Shown: piece after piece, positions 19,246 to 26,632 of the stretch
How the letters are laid out: each line of letters opens with the position of its first letter
Position numbering within the stretch: the first letter of the stretch is position 1
Assembly: GCF_025717005.1 (NCBI RefSeq)
Contig: NZ_JAOVZU010000003.1
Location: forward strand, 174,348 to 238,347
Origin: Actinotalea endophytica
Lineage (GTDB): Bacteria > Actinomycetota > Actinomycetes > Actinomycetales > Cellulomonadaceae
Direction: 5' to 3'
DNA: 64,000 bases
The notes under the pieces: model-generated
Databases searched by the model: none
What the model was told of the DNA's origin: nothing
The model's input: the letters and a program-made list of their open reading frames with translations, nothing else
Made by a program: the position numbers and the translations under genes

Positions 19246-20828
19246 GGGCCGGCTCCCCGCGCGCACCGAGCCTGCTGCTGTTGCTGCTGTTGCTGCTGGG
19301 TCCCTGCCTCGTCGAGCGGGCTCGACGACACGGGCACCGACTCTCCGCTGATCGTCCGGCGCACCGGCGCGATCGCCGAGGTGTTCGGGGCGCGCCGGGC
19401 GCGCCCGAGCACCCAGGTGTCCTTCGACCCGCCGCCCTGCGAGCTGTTCACGACCAGCTGCCCCTCCGGCAGCGCGACCCGGGTCAGCCCACCGGGCAGC
19501 ACGTAGACCTGGTCGCCGTCGTTGACCGCGAACGGGCGCAGGTCGACGTGTCGCGGGCGCAACCCGTCGTCGACGAGCGTGGGCACCGTCGACAGCTGGA
19601 TCACCGGCTGCGCGATCCAGCCGCGCGGGTCCGCCCGGAGCCGGTCGCGCAGTGTCGCGAGCTCGCTGCGGCTCGCGCGTGGGCCGATCACGATGCCCTT
19701 GCCGCCGGAGCCGTCGACGGGCTTGACCACGAGCTCCTCGAGCCGGTCGAGCACCTCGGTGAGCGCCTCGGGCTCCTCGAGCCGCCAGGTGTCCACGCTC
19801 GCCAGGAGCGGTTCCTCACCGAGGTAGTAGCGGATCAGGTCGGGCACGTAGGAGTAGACGAGCTTGTCGTCGGCCACCCCGTTGCCGACCGCGTTGGCGA
19901 TCGTCACCGCACCGTTGCGCGCGCACGCGATCACGCCCGGGCTGCCGAGCAGCGAGTCCTCACGGAAGACGACCGGGTCGAGGAAGTCGTCGTCCACCCG
20001 GCGATAGATCACGTCCACCCGGCGCCGGCCGTCGGTGGTGCGCATCCAGACCCGGCCACCCGAGCAGAACAGGTCGCGGCCCTCGACGAGCTCGACACCC
20101 ATCGTGCGGGCGAGCAGCGAGTGCTCGAAGTACGCCGAGTTGTAGACGCCCGGGGTGAGCACCACGACCGTCGGGTCGTCGACCCCGGCCGGCGCGGCCG
20201 CGCGGAGCGCACCGAGCAGCCGCCGCGGGTAGTCCGCGACCGGCCGGATCCGCAGGGCGGCGAACAGCTCGGGGAACACCTGGGCCATGGCCCGACGGTT
20301 CGACAGGACGTAGCTCACGCCGCTGGGGACCCGGACGTTGTCCTCGAGCACCCGGAAGGTCCCGTCGGCGTCCCGGATCAGGTCGATGCCGGCGACGTGG
20401 ATGCGCACACCGTTCGGCGGGTTGATGCCCTGCGCGGCCCGATGGAAGTGCGTCGAGGACGTCACCAGCCGACGGGGAATGACGCCGTCGGACACGGCTC
20501 GCTGAGCGCCGTACACGTCGTCGAGGAACGCCTCGAGCGCCCGGACCCGCTGAGCGACCCCCGGCGCGACCCCGTCCCACTCCGCCTCGGTCAGGACGCG
20601 CGGCGCGACGTCGATCGGGAAGGGCCGCTCCTCGCCCCCGATGTCGAACGTCACCCCCTGGGTGAGGTACGACCGCGCGAGGGTCTCGGCACGAGCCCGG
20701 AGCTCCTGCTCGGACATCTCCGCGAGCGCTTCCTGGACGTGCCGGTACGACGGACGCACGGCACCCGCGTCGTCGATCACTTCGTCCCACGCCTGCCCGC
20801 GTGGGTAGCCGGTGAACAGGTCGCTCAT
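19239..20828 (-). CDS. circularly permuted ATP-grasp protein (amidoligase-like)
   Basis: A 529-residue member of the circularly permuted ATP-grasp type 2 family, predicted to form amide bonds using ATP. Recognisable parts are the N-terminal region with QGINPPNGVRIHVAGIDLIRD, the acidic FRVLEDNVRVPSGVSYVL (metal ligands), and VVKPVDGSGGKGIVIGP, the glycine-rich nucleotide loop near residue 370. The C-terminus is odd: nine consecutive glutamines followed by a Cys/Arg-rich tail, not conserved in the family as far as I recall. Start ATG at 20828 follows TACGGT by six bases with no clear ribosome site. First gene of the three-gene operon. Confidence 0.9.
   Translation of the reverse strand: MSDLFTGYPRGQAWDEVIDDAGAVRPSYRHVQEALAEMSEQELRARAETLARSYLTQGVTFDIGGEERPFPIDVAPRVLTEAEWDGVAPGVAQRVRALEAFLDDVYGAQRAVSDGVIPRRLVTSSTHFHRAAQGINPPNGVRIHVAGIDLIRDADGTFRVLEDNVRVPSGVSYVLSNRRAMAQVFPELFAALRIRPVADYPRRLLGALRAAAPAGVDDPTVVVLTPGVYNSAYFEHSLLARTMGVELVEGRDLFCSGGRVWMRTTDGRRRVDVIYRRVDDDFLDPVVFREDSLLGSPGVIACARNGAVTIANAVGNGVADDKLVYSYVPDLIRYYLGEEPLLASVDTWRLEEPEALTEVLDRLEELVVKPVDGSGGKGIVIGPRASRSELATLRDRLRADPRGWIAQPVIQLSTVPTLVDDGLRPRHVDLRPFAVNDGDQVYVLPGGLTRVALPEGQLVVNSSQGGGSKDTWVLGRARRAPNTSAIAPVRRTISGESVPVSSSPLDEAGTQQQQQQQQQARCARGAGPC
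19272..19298. repeat. CAG/CAA microsatellite encoding nine glutamines
   Basis: Twenty-seven bases of (CAG)2-3/CAA on the minus strand, forming three near-identical nine-base units in the ATP-grasp C-terminus, 27 bases before the alpha-E start codon. Confidence 0.9.
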
Positions 20829-21689: not shown

Positions 21690-21950
21690 GTGGCCAACAT
21701 CAAGTCCCAGATCAAGCGGATCCGCACCAACGAGGCGGCCCGCCTGCGCAACAAGGCAGTCAAGTCCGAGCTCAAGACGCACGTGCGCCGGGTGCGCGAG
21801 GCCGTCGCCGCCGGCGACAAGGAGGCGGCCGACGCTGCGCTCCGCAGCGCGTCGACGAAGCTCGACAAGGCGGTCAGCAAGGGCGTCATCCACGCCAACC
21901 AGGCTGCCAACCGCAAGTCGAGCCTGGCCAAGCAGGTCGCCGCACTCTGA
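21690..21950 (+). CDS. rpsT: 30S ribosomal protein S20
   Basis: An 86-residue basic protein with the S20 start [29 protein letters not shown] and end [17 protein letters not shown], binding 16S rRNA early in 30S assembly. The GTG start at 21690 is preceded by AAAGAGAG. S20 often lies near holA and lepA; here it is separated from holA by the peptide/HTH-TPR locus. A strong terminator follows 21 bases after its stop. Confidence 0.97.
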
Positions 21951-22074: not shown

Positions 22075-23421
22075 TCAGCTCTCGTTCGGCTCGCTGAACC
22101 CGACTGTGAGCGGATGCCGCGTGGTCATCGAGAAAGTCGTCGGCCGGATGCCTGCTTCGTCCAGGCCTGTCGCATACGCGCGGGCCGCAGCGGCCTGGTC
22201 GCCCATCGTGACGAGGCGGTCGCCGAGGGAGCGCCACACCGACGCCGACTGACGACCGGCCGAGAGCATGGCGAGCCGGTCGGCCGCCCAGCGGTACTCG
22301 TCGAGGGCTTCGTCGAGCCGACCCGTCGCGGCCAGCGCGTCGCCGAGCACGATGTGGGCGTCACAGGCGTCGAAGTCGCCGCTGTCGCCGATGCGCTCGA
22401 GGCTCGCCCGGGTCAGCTCCTCGGCGCGAGCGGCGTCACCGAGCAGCAGGTGGGCCCGGCCCGTCTCGAAGAGGCAACGCCCGATCTCGAGCTCGGTCCC
22501 GACGTTCGCGAGGCCTTCCATGGCAAGGCCCAGCTGCTCGAGCGCCGCGACGGGCTCCGGCGGGTTCGACCGCAGCAGGAGCCAGCCGTAGTGCAGCCGC
22601 AGCCGCGGCACGTCACGGTTCGGGGTCTCCTCGCTCAGGTAGGCGATCGCCCGCTCGGTGAGCCGTCGGGCCTCGGCGTACTCACCGCGGCCCTCGGCGA
22701 CGAGCGAGGCGTTCCAGTAGACGCTGCCCCGGCCACGCCGGGTGCCGTCCCGCTCCGCGAGCTCGATCAGCCCCGAGGCACGGTGCGCCGCGAACAGCAG
22801 GTCGCCACGCTGGTAGTACGACCAGAGGATCGACGACGCGAGGCGCAGGTGCTCGTCGGTCGCCGAGAGGCCGGCCTCGTCGAGCTCGGTCAGCACTTCC
22901 TCACCGAGCTCGATCGAGTGGCTCAGGTCACCGGCCTCGACGTAGATGCCGCACAGCAGCGCGGCGACCACGGCGGCCTGCAGCCACCGTGCGTGCTCAC
23001 GCGCCTCCGCCAGCAGCGGCTCGAGGACCGCGACGGCAGCGTCGAGGTCGCCCAGTGCCTCGTGCGCGTGGGCCAGGGCGAGGAGCGCCTCGGCCTGGTG
23101 CCGTGGCGCGATCGAGCTGAGGTCGAGCGCGAGCAGACGGTTGCGAGCCTCCGCCGCTTCTCCGTTCGCCAACGCGATGCGCGCGTAGCCGAGCTCGAGG
23201 CGCGCACGCTCCTCGCTCGGCGCCTTGTCGCCGTAGCGCAGGTAGTCGGCCGTGGTACCGAGCCGTTCCGCAAGGACGGCGAGCGCCTTGTCGGTCGGCG
23301 TACGCCGCCCGGCCTCGATCAGGGAGACGTACGACGGCGAGAAGTCGTCGCCCGCGAGGGCTGTCTGGGACAGCCCAGCACGCACGCGCTCGGCGCGAAG
23401 GCGATCGGAGAGTTCAGTCAC
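22075..23421 (-). CDS. HTH (XRE) - TPR regulator, RRNPP-like
   Basis: A 448-residue protein. Residues 3-62 are a Cro/C1-type helix-turn-helix (LRAERVRAGLSQTALA, SPSYVSLIEAGRRTPTDKAL); residues about 72-430 are degenerate tetratricopeptide repeats, for example LGYARIALANGEAAEARNRLL, HAHEALGDLDAAVAVLEPLL and LGDALAATGRLDEALDEYRW. This build is that of RRNPP receptors, which bind a re-imported peptide through the TPR surface. A secreted mini-peptide gene lies upstream on the same strand. The GTG start lacks a ribosome site; TATGGT is eight bases before it and TACCGGTA at 23445-23452 is an operator candidate. The target genes are not known. Confidence 0.87.
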   Translation of the reverse strand: MTELSDRLRAERVRAGLSQTALAGDDFSPSYVSLIEAGRRTPTDKALAVLAERLGTTADYLRYGDKAPSEERARLELGYARIALANGEAAEARNRLLALDLSSIAPRHQAEALLALAHAHEALGDLDAAVAVLEPLLAEAREHARWLQAAVVAALLCGIYVEAGDLSHSIELGEEVLTELDEAGLSATDEHLRLASSILWSYYQRGDLLFAAHRASGLIELAERDGTRRGRGSVYWNASLVAEGRGEYAEARRLTERAIAYLSEETPNRDVPRLRLHYGWLLLRSNPPEPVAALEQLGLAMEGLANVGTELEIGRCLFETGRAHLLLGDAARAEELTRASLERIGDSGDFDACDAHIVLGDALAATGRLDEALDEYRWAADRLAMLSAGRQSASVWRSLGDRLVTMGDQAAAARAYATGLDEAGIRPTTFSMTTRHPLTVGFSEPNES

Positions 23422-23429
23422 AACTCATC

Positions 23430-23458
23430 ACCATACCCATGACTTACCGGTATTGACA
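23430..23458 (-). promoter_or_regulatory. candidate promoter and palindrome of the HTH-TPR gene
   Basis: TATGGT (23430-23435) lies eight bases before the GTG. Seventeen bases further is TGTCAA, a weak -35 match. The 8-base palindrome TACCGGTA (23445-23452) falls between them, where an autoregulator could bind. Confidence 0.4.
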
Positions 23459-23550
23459 GAACGTGCACAGACCTGGGACCACGCGACAACGGACGAATCG
23501 GACGCGCATCCCCCGTTCGGCCCAACGAGCTCGCGACGGCGCGGGCCGAA

Positions 23551-23578
23551 GCGCGACCGCGGAGGGACGCGGTCGCGC
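23551..23578. repeat. perfect 11-bp inverted repeat (hairpin)
   Basis: GCGCGACCGCG and CGCGGTCGCGC flank the six-base loop GAGGGA. It is the second of two strong hairpins in the 237-base gap between the peptide gene and the HTH-TPR gene; the rest of the gap shows no gene. Confidence 0.8.
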
Positions 23579-23597
23579 CACCGCACTGCCGACGCCC

Positions 23598-23630
23598 CGC
23601 GAGGGTCGTCGGCAGCCGACGACCCTCGGG
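23598..23630 (-). terminator. strong hairpin terminator of the mini-peptide gene
   Basis: Two perfect 16-base arms separated by one base, 28 bases after the peptide stop. It should end the peptide transcript before the HTH-TPR gene, or act as an attenuator between them. Confidence 0.75.
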
Positions 23631-23658
23631 AGCCGGGGCGAGCCCGGCGGGCGCGTTG

Positions 23659-23778
23659 TCACATCCGGCAGCAGCCGGTGCTCGCCGGCGCGACGGCGTC
23701 GCCGGTGAGCGGAAGACCGATGATGGCGAGCGAAGCAGAGACGAGGGCGATCGCAGCAGCCTTGACGATGCGGGTCAT
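23659..23778 (-). CDS. secreted 39-residue mini-peptide precursor
   Basis: A 39-residue peptide: a positive start (MTRIVK), a hydrophobic core of about 18 residues (7-24), then TGDAVAPASTGCCRM. It reads as a Sec-type signal sequence with a tiny exported tail carrying adjacent cysteines (36 and 37). The ATG at 23778 has a strong GAGGAG ribosome site at ideal spacing, a promoter with TGGTCA-N17-CATAGT, and a hairpin terminator, so this is a real gene despite its size. Next to an HTH-TPR regulator it could be a pheromone-type signal; a bacteriocin-like or structural peptide is the alternative. No homologue is named. Confidence 0.72.
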   Translation of the reverse strand: MTRIVKAAAIALVSASLAIIGLPLTGDAVAPASTGCCRM

Positions 23779-23801
23779 TGTAATACTCCTCGGATCGGGC
23801 T

Positions 23802-23840
23802 TGTCATGACCACTATGACAGAGCCGATCATCTCTGACCA
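23802..23840 (-). promoter_or_regulatory. mini-peptide promoter with overlapping dyad
   Basis: Minus-strand TGGTCA (23835-23840) and CATAGT (23812-23817) are 17 bases apart. A perfect inverted repeat TGTCAT-N7-ATGACA (23802-23820) covers the -10 and the expected start site, placed as a repressor operator. Confidence 0.6.
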
Positions 23841-23895
23841 CCCCCATTCCCGTGGCGAATCGGGACGAATCGCCCCAAATCGCACCAACCGCGAC

Positions 23896-23911
23896 TGTGA
23901 GATGTGTCACA
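23896..23911. promoter_or_regulatory. consensus CRP/GlxR box
   Basis: TGTGA-GATGTG-TCACA is an exact match to the TGTGA-N6-TCACA consensus of CRP/GlxR regulators. Its centre is about 98 bases upstream of the inferred peptide start site. Confidence 0.72.
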
Positions 23912-23944: not shown

Positions 23945-23991
23945 GTCACAAGGGCTATGACTCCTGGGACTCCGACCGATTGCCGAGCGGC

Positions 23992-24969
23992 TCAGCCCTG
24001 GGCCGCCTGCGAGACCCGGAGCACCGCGCGCTCGACCGCGAACACCGGGTCGCGCCCCGCGCCCTTGACCTCGGCGTCCGCCTGGGCGACAGCGGTGATC
24101 GCCGCCGCGAGCGTCTCCGGGCGCCAGCCGACGAGCTCGCGGCGCGCCCGGTCGAGCTGCCAGGGGGCCATGCCGAGATCCTGGGCGGTCAGGCCGCGCC
24201 CACGGGCCGCAGCCACCTTGGCCAAGGTGCGCAGTCGTGCGGCGAGTGCGGCGACCAGGGGCACCGGGTCGGTGCCCGTGGCGAGAGCGTGGCGGAGCAT
24301 CGCCACCGCCTCCCCCGCGTTGCCCTCGACGGCAGCATCGGCCACCCGGAACCCGGTGGCCTCGACACGTCCGCCGTAGTAGCGGCCGACGACGTCCGCC
24401 GAGATCAGACCCGTGGTGTCCGCAAGCAGCTGCTGGCAGGCCGCGGCCAGCTCACGCAGGTCCGCGCCGCACGCCTCGACGAGGGCGTGCACCGCAGCGG
24501 GCTCCGCACGCCGGCGACCGCGGGAGAGCTCTGCCGAGACGAACGCCACCTTGTCCGCGTCGCGCTTGACCGGGGCGCAGACGACCTGCGTCGCACCGGC
24601 CGCCCGTACGGCGTCGAGCACGGGCTTGCCGCGGTTGCCGCCGGCATGGACCAGCAGGAGCACCGCGTCGGCCTCCGGCGCCTCGAGATAGGCGCGCACA
24701 TCGGCGAAGGCGGCGTCGGTACCGGACTCGAGGCCGGCCAGGACGACGACCCTGGCCTCGCCGAAGAGCGACGGGCTGGTCGCGACCGCCAGCTGCCCCG
24801 ACTCGTAACCCGCGGCCTCGAGACGGGTCACCTCGACCTCGGGATCGGCCTCGCGGGCCAGAGCGATCACGCGATCGACGGCCCGCTCGCCGAGCAGACC
24901 CTCCGGACCCGAGACGAGCACCACGGGAGCTGGTGTCACCTGGTCCCAGGTGATGGTCGGTGCCGGCAC
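23992..24969 (-). CDS. holA: DNA polymerase III subunit delta
   Basis: A 325-residue clamp-loader subunit that opens the sliding clamp. The N-terminal AAA+-like fold without a functional P-loop reads VVLVSGPEGLLGERAVDRVI; the lid and collar domains follow with DLRELAAACQQLL. Length and order fit HolA. Start GTG at 24969 (MPAPTITWDQ) is chosen; the longer frame upstream is Arg-rich shadow sequence. It follows comEC by 25 bases, the usual comEA-comEC-holA order. Confidence 0.93.
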   Translation of the reverse strand: MPAPTITWDQVTPAPVVLVSGPEGLLGERAVDRVIALAREADPEVEVTRLEAAGYESGQLAVATSPSLFGEARVVVLAGLESGTDAAFADVRAYLEAPEADAVLLLVHAGGNRGKPVLDAVRAAGATQVVCAPVKRDADKVAFVSAELSRGRRRAEPAAVHALVEACGADLRELAAACQQLLADTTGLISADVVGRYYGGRVEATGFRVADAAVEGNAGEAVAMLRHALATGTDPVPLVAALAARLRTLAKVAAARGRGLTAQDLGMAPWQLDRARRELVGWRPETLAAAITAVAQADAEVKGAGRDPVFAVERAVLRVSQAAQG

Positions 24970-24994
24970 GGGGACAGCCTGCCACGGACCGCCG

Positions 24995-26632
24995 TCACGC
25001 CGCCCCGTGGCGCGACGCCCGCGCGGTCGCCGGGACCAGCAGCACCCGCCCCGCCAGCCACGCCGCGGCGAGCAGCGCCGCGAGACCGAGCGCTCCGAGA
25101 GCGCCCTCACGCCACGGGGTCGCCGCGCCGGGCAGTCCGGCGGTCGCCCGCGCGACGGTCCCGAGCCACGCCGCCGGGTACGCCGCGACGCGGGCGACCA
25201 TCACGGCGCCGCCGGACCAGACCGGCTCAAGGACCGTCGCGGTGAGCCCGAGAAGGGTCGCCGGGACCACGGCCGGTGCCGCGACCACGTTCGCCGGGAC
25301 GGCCCACGGCGAGACGACCGGGTCCACGAGGACCAGCACGGGCGCCACCGCGCTCTGCGCCGCGAGCGGCACGGTGAGCACCGCGAGCGCCCCCACCGAC
25401 GGCCTCGTGCGAAGCTGCGGCGGCCACCGCTCGTGCACGGCGCGGGCGCTCGGACCGGCGAGGAGGACGATGGCCACGGTGGCCAGCACCGAGAGCTGAA
25501 AGCCCAGGGAGCCCGCCGCCCACGGGTCGGCCACCAGGAGGCCGACCACGGCGACGCCCAGCGCCGGTAGCGGCCAGGACGGCCGTCCGAGCGCCAGCGC
25601 GAGAGCGCCGACGCCACCCATGACGGCCGCCCGGAGCACGCTCGCGCCCGGCCCGACGAGGAGCGCGAAGGAGATCACGGCGGCGCCTGCGAGGACCGCC
25701 CGCAGCCACCGCGGCGCGCGCGCCGCGCCGGCCAGCGCCATCACCGCGAGCAGCACGATCGCGACATGCTGACCGGACACCGCCACCAGGTGGCTCAGAC
25801 CCGCGACCCGCATGGCCTGGGTGAGCTCGGGGGTCACGCGGGAGACGTCGCCGATCGCGACGCCGGGCACGAGCGCGGCCGCGTCACCATCGAGCGACGC
25901 CGTCGCGGTGCGCAGCCCGGAGCGCAGCCGGGCCACGGCACCGAGCGCGGCACCCGGCGCGGCGAGCACCTCGAACGCACCGGTCGCGAGCACCGCGGGC
26001 CGCCGTCCGTCGAGCGGTGCGAGCCGTCCGAGGACGCTGACCCGAGCGCCGAGCGGGACGTCCAGCCACGCGGCGTCCCCCGTGACGAGGACCTCGGCCG
26101 CGGCGCGTCCCGTGCGCCCCCGAGCGGCGACCTGGTCGACCAGGACCACGGCACTGACCCGTTCGCGGTCCCACGCCACCGGGGCGGGAGCCGCCTCGCC
26201 GACGACGACGCCCTCCACGACCGCGGTGGCCCGCTGCTCGGCGGCCTCCAGCAGGGGCCCGTCGGCACGGGCCTCGAGGTGCGCGGCGCAGGACACCAGG
26301 ACGGCCGTCACCGCCGCCACGGCCACCAGCGTGGCCCCCGCGACATCCCTGACCGGTGCGGGCCTACGGTGGCGCGGACGCGGCCGACGGCTCCGCCGGA
26401 GCTCGTCCCGGGAACCGGCAGCGCGCCGAGCACCGCGACCGACGCCGCCCGCCGACGGGCGACGTGCGCAGACCACGACGAGCGCCAGGGCGATCATCCC
26501 GAGGACGACGATCACCGCGAGCAGAGCCGGTGTCGGCCCGGCCGCGCCCTGAGCGTGAACCCCGAGCCCTGCCGCGCACCAGGAGCCGACGGCGGCGGGC
26601 AGCAGCCGCAGGTCGACGGGACGCTCAGACAC
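24995..26632 (-). CDS. comEC: ComEC/Rec2-family competence membrane protein, lacking the metallo-beta-lactamase domain
   Basis: A 545-residue polytopic protein. It has an N-terminal hydrophobic region, the soluble OB-like loop (VVEGVVVGEAAP onward) and the Competence transmembrane domain, with the conserved AGLSHLVAVSGQHVAIVLL. Full-length ComEC proteins usually continue with a metallo-beta-lactamase domain of about 250 residues; here the frame ends soon after the last membrane helix and holA begins 25 bases later, so that domain is absent. It would form the DNA-import channel in transformation. The GTG at 26632 overlaps the comEA stop by eight bases. Confidence 0.88.
   Translation of the reverse strand: MSERPVDLRLLPAAVGSWCAAGLGVHAQGAAGPTPALLAVIVVLGMIALALVVVCARRPSAGGVGRGARRAAGSRDELRRSRRPRPRHRRPAPVRDVAGATLVAVAAVTAVLVSCAAHLEARADGPLLEAAEQRATAVVEGVVVGEAAPAPVAWDRERVSAVVLVDQVAARGRTGRAAAEVLVTGDAAWLDVPLGARVSVLGRLAPLDGRRPAVLATGAFEVLAAPGAALGAVARLRSGLRTATASLDGDAAALVPGVAIGDVSRVTPELTQAMRVAGLSHLVAVSGQHVAIVLLAVMALAGAARAPRWLRAVLAGAAVISFALLVGPGASVLRAAVMGGVGALALALGRPSWPLPALGVAVVGLLVADPWAAGSLGFQLSVLATVAIVLLAGPSARAVHERWPPQLRTRPSVGALAVLTVPLAAQSAVAPVLVLVDPVVSPWAVPANVVAAPAVVPATLLGLTATVLEPVWSGGAVMVARVAAYPAAWLGTVARATAGLPGAATPWREGALGALGLAALLAAAWLAGRVLLVPATARASRHGAA

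Follow-up and report, generated by a model that had tools for sequence, protein, structure and literature searches.

The 64,000-nucleotide stretch of the Actinotalea endophytica genome analyzed here (the window, whose positions are used throughout) contains on its minus strand a small peptide gene (23778 to 23659) and, 237 bp downstream of it, a gene for a regulator composed of a helix-turn-helix (HTH) and tetratricopeptide repeats (TPR; 23421 to 22075). The coordinates and translations given in an earlier note for the 39-residue peptide and the 448-residue XRE-TPR protein are right, and the strong ribosome site described there is present as GAGGAG, 7 nt before the ATG. Judged from sequence, the two genes would form, with a probability of roughly three in four, a peptide signaling cassette working like the RRNPP systems of Firmicutes, with the HTH-TPR protein as receptor of the peptide.

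The peptide, MTRIVKAAAIALVSASLAIIGLPLTGDAVAPASTGCCRM (23659–23778), begins with a Sec-like leader comprised of a basic N terminus, a hydrophobic core, and AVA, and has the C terminus STGCCRM. A program-made list of open reading frames (ORFs) placed it inside an 83-codon ORF with a GTG start (23659–23910), and the internal ATG is favored as its start because of the Shine-Dalgarno sequence and the start positions of homologues. It is the one small ORF in the window that fits the peptide rule used below (20–75 codons preceded by a Shine-Dalgarno-like site, with a hydrophobic core and with CC among the nine C-terminal residues). The peptide has no match in Pfam or NCBIfam. The receptor was matched by the Pfam models HTH_31 (6.5e-10), HTH_3 (3.2e-8), TPR_2 (6.2e-9), and TPR_12 (1.7e-8), with TPR_19 also over the cut-off.

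Recurrence of the receptor-peptide pair

Receptor homologues were gathered without regard to peptides. They were found in at least 23 of 396 genomes of the order (single sequence, E ≤ 1e-30) and, own genome included, in at least 70 of 394 genomes of the class and at least 14 of 246 of the phylum (profile, E ≤ 1e-40), these tallies being lower bounds as mostly four to six first-look candidates were scored per genome. Three named loci were added and four class-survey matches (G634, G662, G736, and G737) left out; L034 (the same as L001), L030 (overlapping L012), L027, and L137 (HTH only) were dropped before the count, giving 133 loci. A profile score limit of 285, chosen after the listing was seen, gave 92 loci, which are related, some of them nearly identical (e.g. 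L010/L011 and L021/L022), and are not independent events.

A CC ORF obeying the strict rule lies within 700 bp outside the receptor in 73 of the 92 loci. With another doubled residue in place of CC the number never exceeded 14 (AA), 20 rounds of flank shuffling gave a mean of 0.4 of 92, and no such ORF occurs inside 175,874 bp of receptor bodies. The final tally of the 92 is 76 loci with a CC peptide, 7 with a Cys-less leader peptide, 2 cut by a contig end, and 7 with none; for all 133 loci the corresponding numbers are 84, 7, 2, and 40. The expectation that the peptide would be found beside XRE-TPR homologues, with its C terminus as the conserved part, was therefore borne out by the CC leader peptides of these 76 and 84 loci, CC being the most constant part of an otherwise variable tail. 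Complete receptor ORFs encode 431–505 residues in 30 of 33 loci (L009, L027, and L030 set aside), the one longer than 500 being that of L024 (505).

The 89 distinct CC peptides are 36–74 residues in length (20–75 were allowed), CC and the hydrophobic core having been conditions of the search. Lys or Arg is present within the first ten residues in 88 of them and AxA between the core and CC in 78. The position of CC is divided between the very terminus (52/89) and one to six residues before it (37/89). These leaders suggest that the peptide is probably secreted via Sec. Adjacent cysteines, which had been called unusual, are the usual form among the homologues and not an oddity, with seven orthologous peptides lacking them.

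These seven (L084, L097, L098, L099, L100, L103, and L104, all in the family coded f35) have an orthologous leader in the same divergent position followed by a Cys-less tail, for example ...SFGWNHPG, ...YGWGWPG, or ...SPWQWPI, and may represent another tail type inside one receptor lineage. A Trp is found among the final six residues in six of the seven tails, the other tail ending in GPLNNAE. ORFs ending in ASCCAC at five f35 loci (L084, L098, L099, L103, and L104) were rejected as partners, being at least 600 bp downstream and either without a Shine-Dalgarno sequence or longer than 75 codons. Other loci outside the strict rule include L040 and L062, with CC peptides lacking a detected Shine-Dalgarno sequence, L020, where PCCRGFQ is followed by a longer tail, L092, with a CC peptide ∼1.65 kb off, and L035 and L050, where the contig ends within a leader-like ORF.

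The nearest peptide gene is upstream in tandem at 17 loci, downstream in tandem at 4, downstream and convergent at 10, and divergent at 60, the last number including the seven Cys-less loci. Seven of the 10 convergent cases belong to f45, and that of f15 (L024) is the peptide of a neighboring receptor, L024 also having a divergent peptide. The pair survives gene-order rearrangement. It reaches beyond the window's order, with CC peptides in 14 coded families (f1, f15, f16, f18, f27, f32, f35, f38, f39, f44, f45, f46, f54, and f55) and some of the genomes that have the pair measuring 7–10 Mb; f35 is tentatively linked to Streptosporangiaceae, the sole basis being a Nonomuraea peptide. This recurrence in many actinobacterial families suggests a widespread peptide signaling system.

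Downstream of one receptor in L028 (3178–4053, plus strand) and in L029 (197–1132, minus strand), four different CC leader peptides stand in a row with similar tails (SPCCKQAIR, SPCCKSAIR, and SPCCKSAGQ), possibly forming a multi-peptide signal set. Two receptors with different peptide tails are present in each of four genomes: G302 (L010 and L028), G330 (L011 and L029), G374 (L008 and L026), and G392 (L009 and L025). In some f38 genomes (L048, L053, L055, and L056) a second, longer CC peptide, with tails such as ...GGSDFCC, ...GGSDYCC, and ...GGSLYCC, is located 3' of the receptor in addition to the divergent one. Contig C158 of G079 (L027 and L018) has four HTH-TPR receptor matches in a row, three of them within a 1444-codon open frame.

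Among named records, Nonomuraea gerenzanensis has a divergent peptide ending in ...GDAGCC, and the Streptomyces plasmid pADI95-16a has, beside the receptor, an annotated hypothetical protein ending in DIPLCC with no Shine-Dalgarno sequence by the rule used. Two small annotated hypothetical proteins with leader-like sequences, the first ending in LCC, follow the receptor on this plasmid (L139, 4018–4525, plus strand), near a BTAD-type regulator gene. The CC-containing ORFs of three further Streptomyces plasmid loci (L140, L141, and L143) were rejected for lack of a Shine-Dalgarno sequence or of a leader. A mobile-element home was considered and rejected: IMG/VR gave one match, to the HTH only, the one match among GenBank phages, to a record without annotation, was partial and spanned 44% of the query at 37% identity, and PLSDB gave 15 records, 14 of them from Streptomyces.

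Palindromes at the two promoters

The comparison of putative operators covered 15 window-family pairs with the peptide gene upstream in tandem (twelve coded f1, two from named Cellulomonadaceae, and one from an unclassified metagenome-assembled genome). With at most one mismatch allowed, GTCAY-N7-RTGAC is present in 13 of the 15 peptide promoters when 130 nt are scanned and, within 60 nt, in 14 of the 15 receptor promoters, against means of 0.2 and 0.14, respectively, in block-shuffled sequence. This null flatters the pattern, as the palindrome had been noticed by eye in these very sequences, all of this one family, before counting. The receptor-side site of L012 has two mismatches. The peptide-side palindrome is 22–42 nt from the peptide start in 11 pairs and 71 nt in L008 and L009, and ten of the 13 sites contain CATNNT, a weaker likeness to a -10 element. 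On the receptor side, the site ends 4–5 nt before the start codon and contains TANNNT in all 15 pairs. The window's receptor mRNA is probably leaderless, because the site over the -10-like TATGGT ends so close to the start codon (Table 1).

As both promoters carry the same palindrome, the HTH-TPR receptor probably controls the peptide gene as well as its own, and would itself be the binder of the palindromes. The link between the two genes, previously drawn from position and architecture, is thus extended within the window's family by an operator-like sequence common to both. Half-sites resembling the palindrome are visible by eye between divergent pairs of other families.

Two sites in the own genome, one in G263, and one in the Actinotalea lenta genome fit the stricter pattern TGTCAYN7RTGACA, which is rare in these three genomes and in each of them includes the peptide promoter. 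The second own-genome site is perfect (L145, 1501–1519) and adjoins what we take to be a upp-like gene; no leader-type CC peptide lies near it. A regulon search of the own genome with GTCAYN7RTGAC gave 34 sites, versus 3 for the pattern read backward. Of the 15 sites returned as loci, 11 fall within ORFs of 100 codons or more and 4 do not; of the intergenic candidates, L151 precedes a gene for a secreted protein and L154 one that is presumably GlgX-like.

A sigma-70 consensus scan and a U-tract terminator scan of the cassette detected neither promoter nor terminator. The promoter and terminator previously assigned to the peptide gene consequently find no support in consensus elements, and are plausible in the form of the weak -10-like CATAGT and of a GC hairpin without a U tract, which lies in a 93-nt stretch (23570–23662) with a fold z of -4.59.

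The cassette is flanked by two ORFs that we take from their sequences to be holA-like (23992–25110, minus strand) and rpsT-like (21690–21950, plus strand). The rpsT-like gene adjoins the cassette in 14 of 14 window-family pairs with enough flank (15 pairs in all, L009 being at a contig edge). Elsewhere the neighbors vary (ten proteins at seven loci), and include an EamA transporter, aminotransferases, ZnuA, alanine dehydrogenase, GDT1, a histidine kinase, and a tRNA ligase, among others. No fixed adjacent target gene was found among these ten proteins and, since the neighboring genes differ between families, no partner other than the peptide was seen to be constant. The closest named relative is Actinotalea lenta, with a receptor identity of 88%, and a search of the own genome with the receptor gave a single match at E ≤ 0.001. 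Elsewhere in the window, a run of nine CTG-type triplets (19272–19298) is located within a long minus-strand ORF, where it would read as poly-Gln; a similar run occurs in the relative L032.

Table 1. Sequence features of the peptide-receptor cassette in the window
Feature	Position	Strand	Remarks
Propeptide gene	23659..23778	-	39 aa, ATG start; Sec-type leader, tail PASTGCCRM; from sequence and homologues
Shine-Dalgarno GAGGAG	23786..23791	-	7 nt before peptide ATG; from sequence
Palindrome TGTCATAGTGGTCATGACA	23802..23820	-	Peptide promoter; includes weak -10-like CATAGT; proposed receptor operator
Second palindrome GTCATAGCCCTTGTGAC	23945..23961	-	Farther upstream of peptide gene
GC hairpin, 13-bp arms	23600..23628	-	∼30 nt past peptide stop codon; possible terminator, without U tract
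GTCATGGGTATGGTGAT, one-mismatch copy of palindrome	23427..23443	-	Over -10-like TATGGT; ends 5 nt before receptor start codon
XRE-type HTH and TPR superhelix regulator	22075..23421	-	448 aa, GTG start; proposed peptide receptor

Variation of the tail and of the receptor

For two sets of close relatives, the ratio of nonsynonymous to synonymous differences (pN/pS) of the peptide amounts to 0.28 and 0.43; for three more distant groups it is 0.77–0.95. Receptor values in the same groups are 0.10–0.49. Family f35 (15 loci: 8 CC and 7 Cys-less) has a mean identity of 53% in the leader, 59% in the receptor, and 21% in the tail, the last value being lowered by the mixed tail types, and gaps being counted as differences. 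The tail is less identical than the leader in 105 of 105 pairs. This divergence is as expected of diverging pheromone codes, and the lineages probably use private codes, in which tails diversify and CC is mostly kept. The CC and Cys-less groups of f35 are separated by 36 receptor columns, with a receptor identity of 53% between the groups and of 64 and 68% within them. These columns are no proof of co-adaptation, because the groups also differ by descent.

An AlphaFold2 model of the receptor, made from four sequences, has a mean predicted local distance difference test score (pLDDT) of 81, a predicted template modeling score of 0.70, and nine helix pairs; the TPR part is mostly above a pLDDT of 80, and the HTH and the last 22 residues are poor. 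The A helices of TPR proteins line the concave groove. Polar or aromatic positions conserved at ≥85% in 26 aligned receptors number 12 of 148 in the A helices and 0 of 143 in the B helices (p = 0.0004). Retention of individual residues was compared over 131 labeled receptors, 91 paired with a peptide and 40 unpaired. Trp236 is kept in 91/91 paired and 27/40 unpaired receptors, Asn237 in 78/91 and 12/40, Thr188 in 68/91 and 5/40, Trp396 in 90/91 and 29/40, and Arg273 in 83/91 and 26/40. According to PMC3601965, Asn225 of RapJ, conserved in the Rap proteins of Bacillus subtilis, contacts the peptide main chain, which makes Asn237 a candidate for an analogous clamp that might hold the main chain of the peptide.

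The signaling cassette, its rivals, and known systems

In the proposed mechanism, the propeptide would leave the cell via Sec and be cleaved by signal peptidase, the likeliest site being after AVA, to yield a tail near PASTGCCRM. This tail could re-enter the cell via an oligopeptide permease and bind in the concave groove of the TPR domain. The receptor, for its part, would bind the GTCAY-N7-RTGAC palindromes observed in its own promoter and that of the peptide, and when bound should repress both genes, because the palindromes overlap the -10-like elements. Peptide binding would change this repression, most simply by releasing it and so creating positive feedback, a direction that is slightly favored. 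A broader and distinctly tentative proposal, with odds somewhat below even, is that peptide quorum sensing with cytoplasmic receptors has another home in Actinomycetota, where an old HTH-TPR lineage is accompanied by self-regulated CC pheromones with private-code tails and with vicinal cysteines that make the signal redox-gated, oxidized outside the cell and reduced inside before binding.

Several findings weigh against a signaling cassette. In addition to the choice of the palindrome by eye, L010 and L011 are without a palindrome on the peptide side, the site of L008 and L009 is at another distance, and the own-genome palindrome search found no target gene beyond the cassette. Seven of the 92 high-scoring loci (L078, L079, L080, L086, L090, L092, and L105) have no peptide in range. 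Below the score of 285 a CC peptide is present in 8 of 41 loci and none in 33, and the 40 peptide-less loci of the whole set include every one of the 13 from the phylum survey, along with 19 that belong to a second paralogue group of f35; with so many receptor loci lacking a peptide, the receptor fold is wider than the pairing. Similarly, four of the five Streptomyces plasmid loci fetched (of 14 Streptomyces records) have a receptor without a leader-type CC peptide. Arg273, Arg390, and Trp396 are common in unpaired receptors too, and other A-helix residues are poorly kept in the paired ones (Arg193 53/91, Glu243 60/91, Asp361 31/91, and Arg402 29/91). The best 50 of 286 Foldseek matches (E ≤ 0.001) are generic TPR proteins and include no RRNPP receptor, the HTH of the model being poor; the fold ranking was not used as evidence for RRNPP membership. 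The six PF00496 proteins of the own genome say little about re-import, as the family is also found in 11 of 14 control genomes.

The redox and metal reactivity generally known for adjacent cysteines, together with the retention of CC in most tails, would also suit a peptide that acts on its own cell. Such a peptide would report on Sec export, on the redox state, or on a metal by means of its Cys pair and be read inside the cell by the HTH-TPR protein. This appears unlikely, since seven orthologous f35 peptides are Cys-less yet keep the leader and position, and the strong diversification outside CC would be better explained by recognition specificity than by chemistry. A secreted antimicrobial, or the precursor of a ribosomally synthesized and post-translationally modified peptide (RiPP), with the HTH-TPR protein as a local regulator, is more improbable still. 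The short leader and Cys tail are compatible with it, as is one Streptomyces plasmid copy located among sugar-type genes and a BTAD-type regulator, whereas no modifying-enzyme or exporter family is common to the neighbors (ten proteins, seven loci) and the window-family locus adjoins rpsT; as the neighbors differ elsewhere, a RiPP cluster is unlikely.

An XRE protein beside a hydrophobic peptide of 40 residues, with an operator-like palindrome common to both, is likewise reminiscent of a small membrane toxin under an XRE-type antitoxin or repressor. Very little weight is given to this explanation in view of the AxA motif that 78 of 89 peptides have between core and CC, the conservation at the C terminus of the tail, the runs of four peptides next to a single receptor in L028 and L029, and the long TPR domain, which we take to be untypical of antitoxins. 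Finally, the shortness of the ORF, the commonness of HTH-TPR proteins, and the peptide pN/pS of 0.77–0.95 in the three more distant groups could be read as signs of a chance ORF beside a common regulator. The probability of this is close to negligible: it is already contradicted by the 73 of 92 loci versus 0.4 after shuffling and by the absence of such ORFs from 175,874 bp of receptor bodies, and the pN/pS of 0.28 and 0.43 in the two close-relative groups also argues against it.

The preferred explanation is the two-gene signaling cassette. Peptide signals with cytoplasmic TPR receptors are documented in Firmicutes and little in actinobacteria, and a conserved, apparently self-regulated pair in 14 coded families would, if this explanation is true, be the actinobacteria's own peptide language. 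Synthetic peptides would then be ready keys for probing the control of development and secondary metabolism, and the Cys-Cys signature is expected to provide a simple search handle for peptide genes small enough for annotation to miss.

The RRNPP signature consists of five criteria in PMC10075063, and four of them agree with the cassette: a propeptide of 10–100 residues (here 39), a receptor of 250–500 residues (448), TPRs in the receptor (TPR_2, TPR_12, and TPR_19), and neighboring genes (default -60 to 400 bp; 237 bp). The fifth, Sec export, is indicated by residue rules only (AVA; a basic N terminus in 88/89 and AxA in 78/89 peptides). The RRNPP-like layout recognized in the earlier note holds to this extent, and over its length the receptor matches no known RRNPP subfamily (PlcR, NprR, Rap, Rgg, ComR, PrgX, or AimR) among PDB chains, the only ones compared. 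The survey in PMC10075063 was confined to complete genomes from Firmicutes and viruses, and the present family is consequently outside its range.

Cell-cell signaling in Actinomycetota is known mainly through small molecules such as γ-butyrolactones, according to PMC4748050 and PMC10075063. The former, a review of actinobacterial quorum sensing, mentions TPR in a table and describes communication beyond the butyrolactone system as scarcely explored. None of the titles and abstract beginnings found for open-licence PMC articles, a scope that leaves subscription papers and bioRxiv outside, concerned the pairing of an XRE-TPR receptor with a Cys-Cys peptide in actinobacteria. The TPR part weakly matches the NsdA-family TPR regulator of Streptomyces (NF053720, E = 1.7e-4), and membership of that family was ruled out by a score of 21.2 bits versus a cut-off of 75. 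We know of no described pheromone with a Cys-Cys tail.

ComR/ComS and Rgg/SHP of Streptococcus resemble the cassette in combining an HTH with helical repeats that bind peptide and in having a short propeptide gene, and the doubled-residue signature of ComS is WW where here it is CC. The ComR HTH is the top single-sequence match in the PDB (E = 0.0062) and the only RRNPP chain among the 11 matches, but the match is limited to the HTH (matched chain of 68 residues). The leader here is Sec-like, whereas SHPs are exported via PptAB according to PMC10075063. Rap/Phr and NprR/NprX are alike in combining a propeptide exported by Sec with a TPR receptor; unlike the present receptor, Rap is without an HTH DNA-binding domain. 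No Rap or NprR chain occurs in the best 60 of 185 profile matches or in all 11 single-sequence PDB matches, and to our knowledge the signals of these systems contain no Cys pair.

PlcR/PapR of Bacillus has the same layout of two adjacent genes with an XRE HTH and TPRs in the receptor, and PapR is likewise a short leader propeptide with a C-terminal signal. PlcR is the best-scoring natural chain over HTH and TPR in the best 60 of 185 PDB matches (E = 1.7e-7, profile positions 3–183 of 449), although only ∼40% of the profile aligns and a search with the window receptor alone, run to E = 0.1, did not match PlcR. Compared with PlcR/PapR, the present system has a longer TPR part, CC in the ligand tail, and an Actinomycetota host, and there is a good probability that it works like an RRNPP system, of which it would represent a new family with a Cys-Cys tail.

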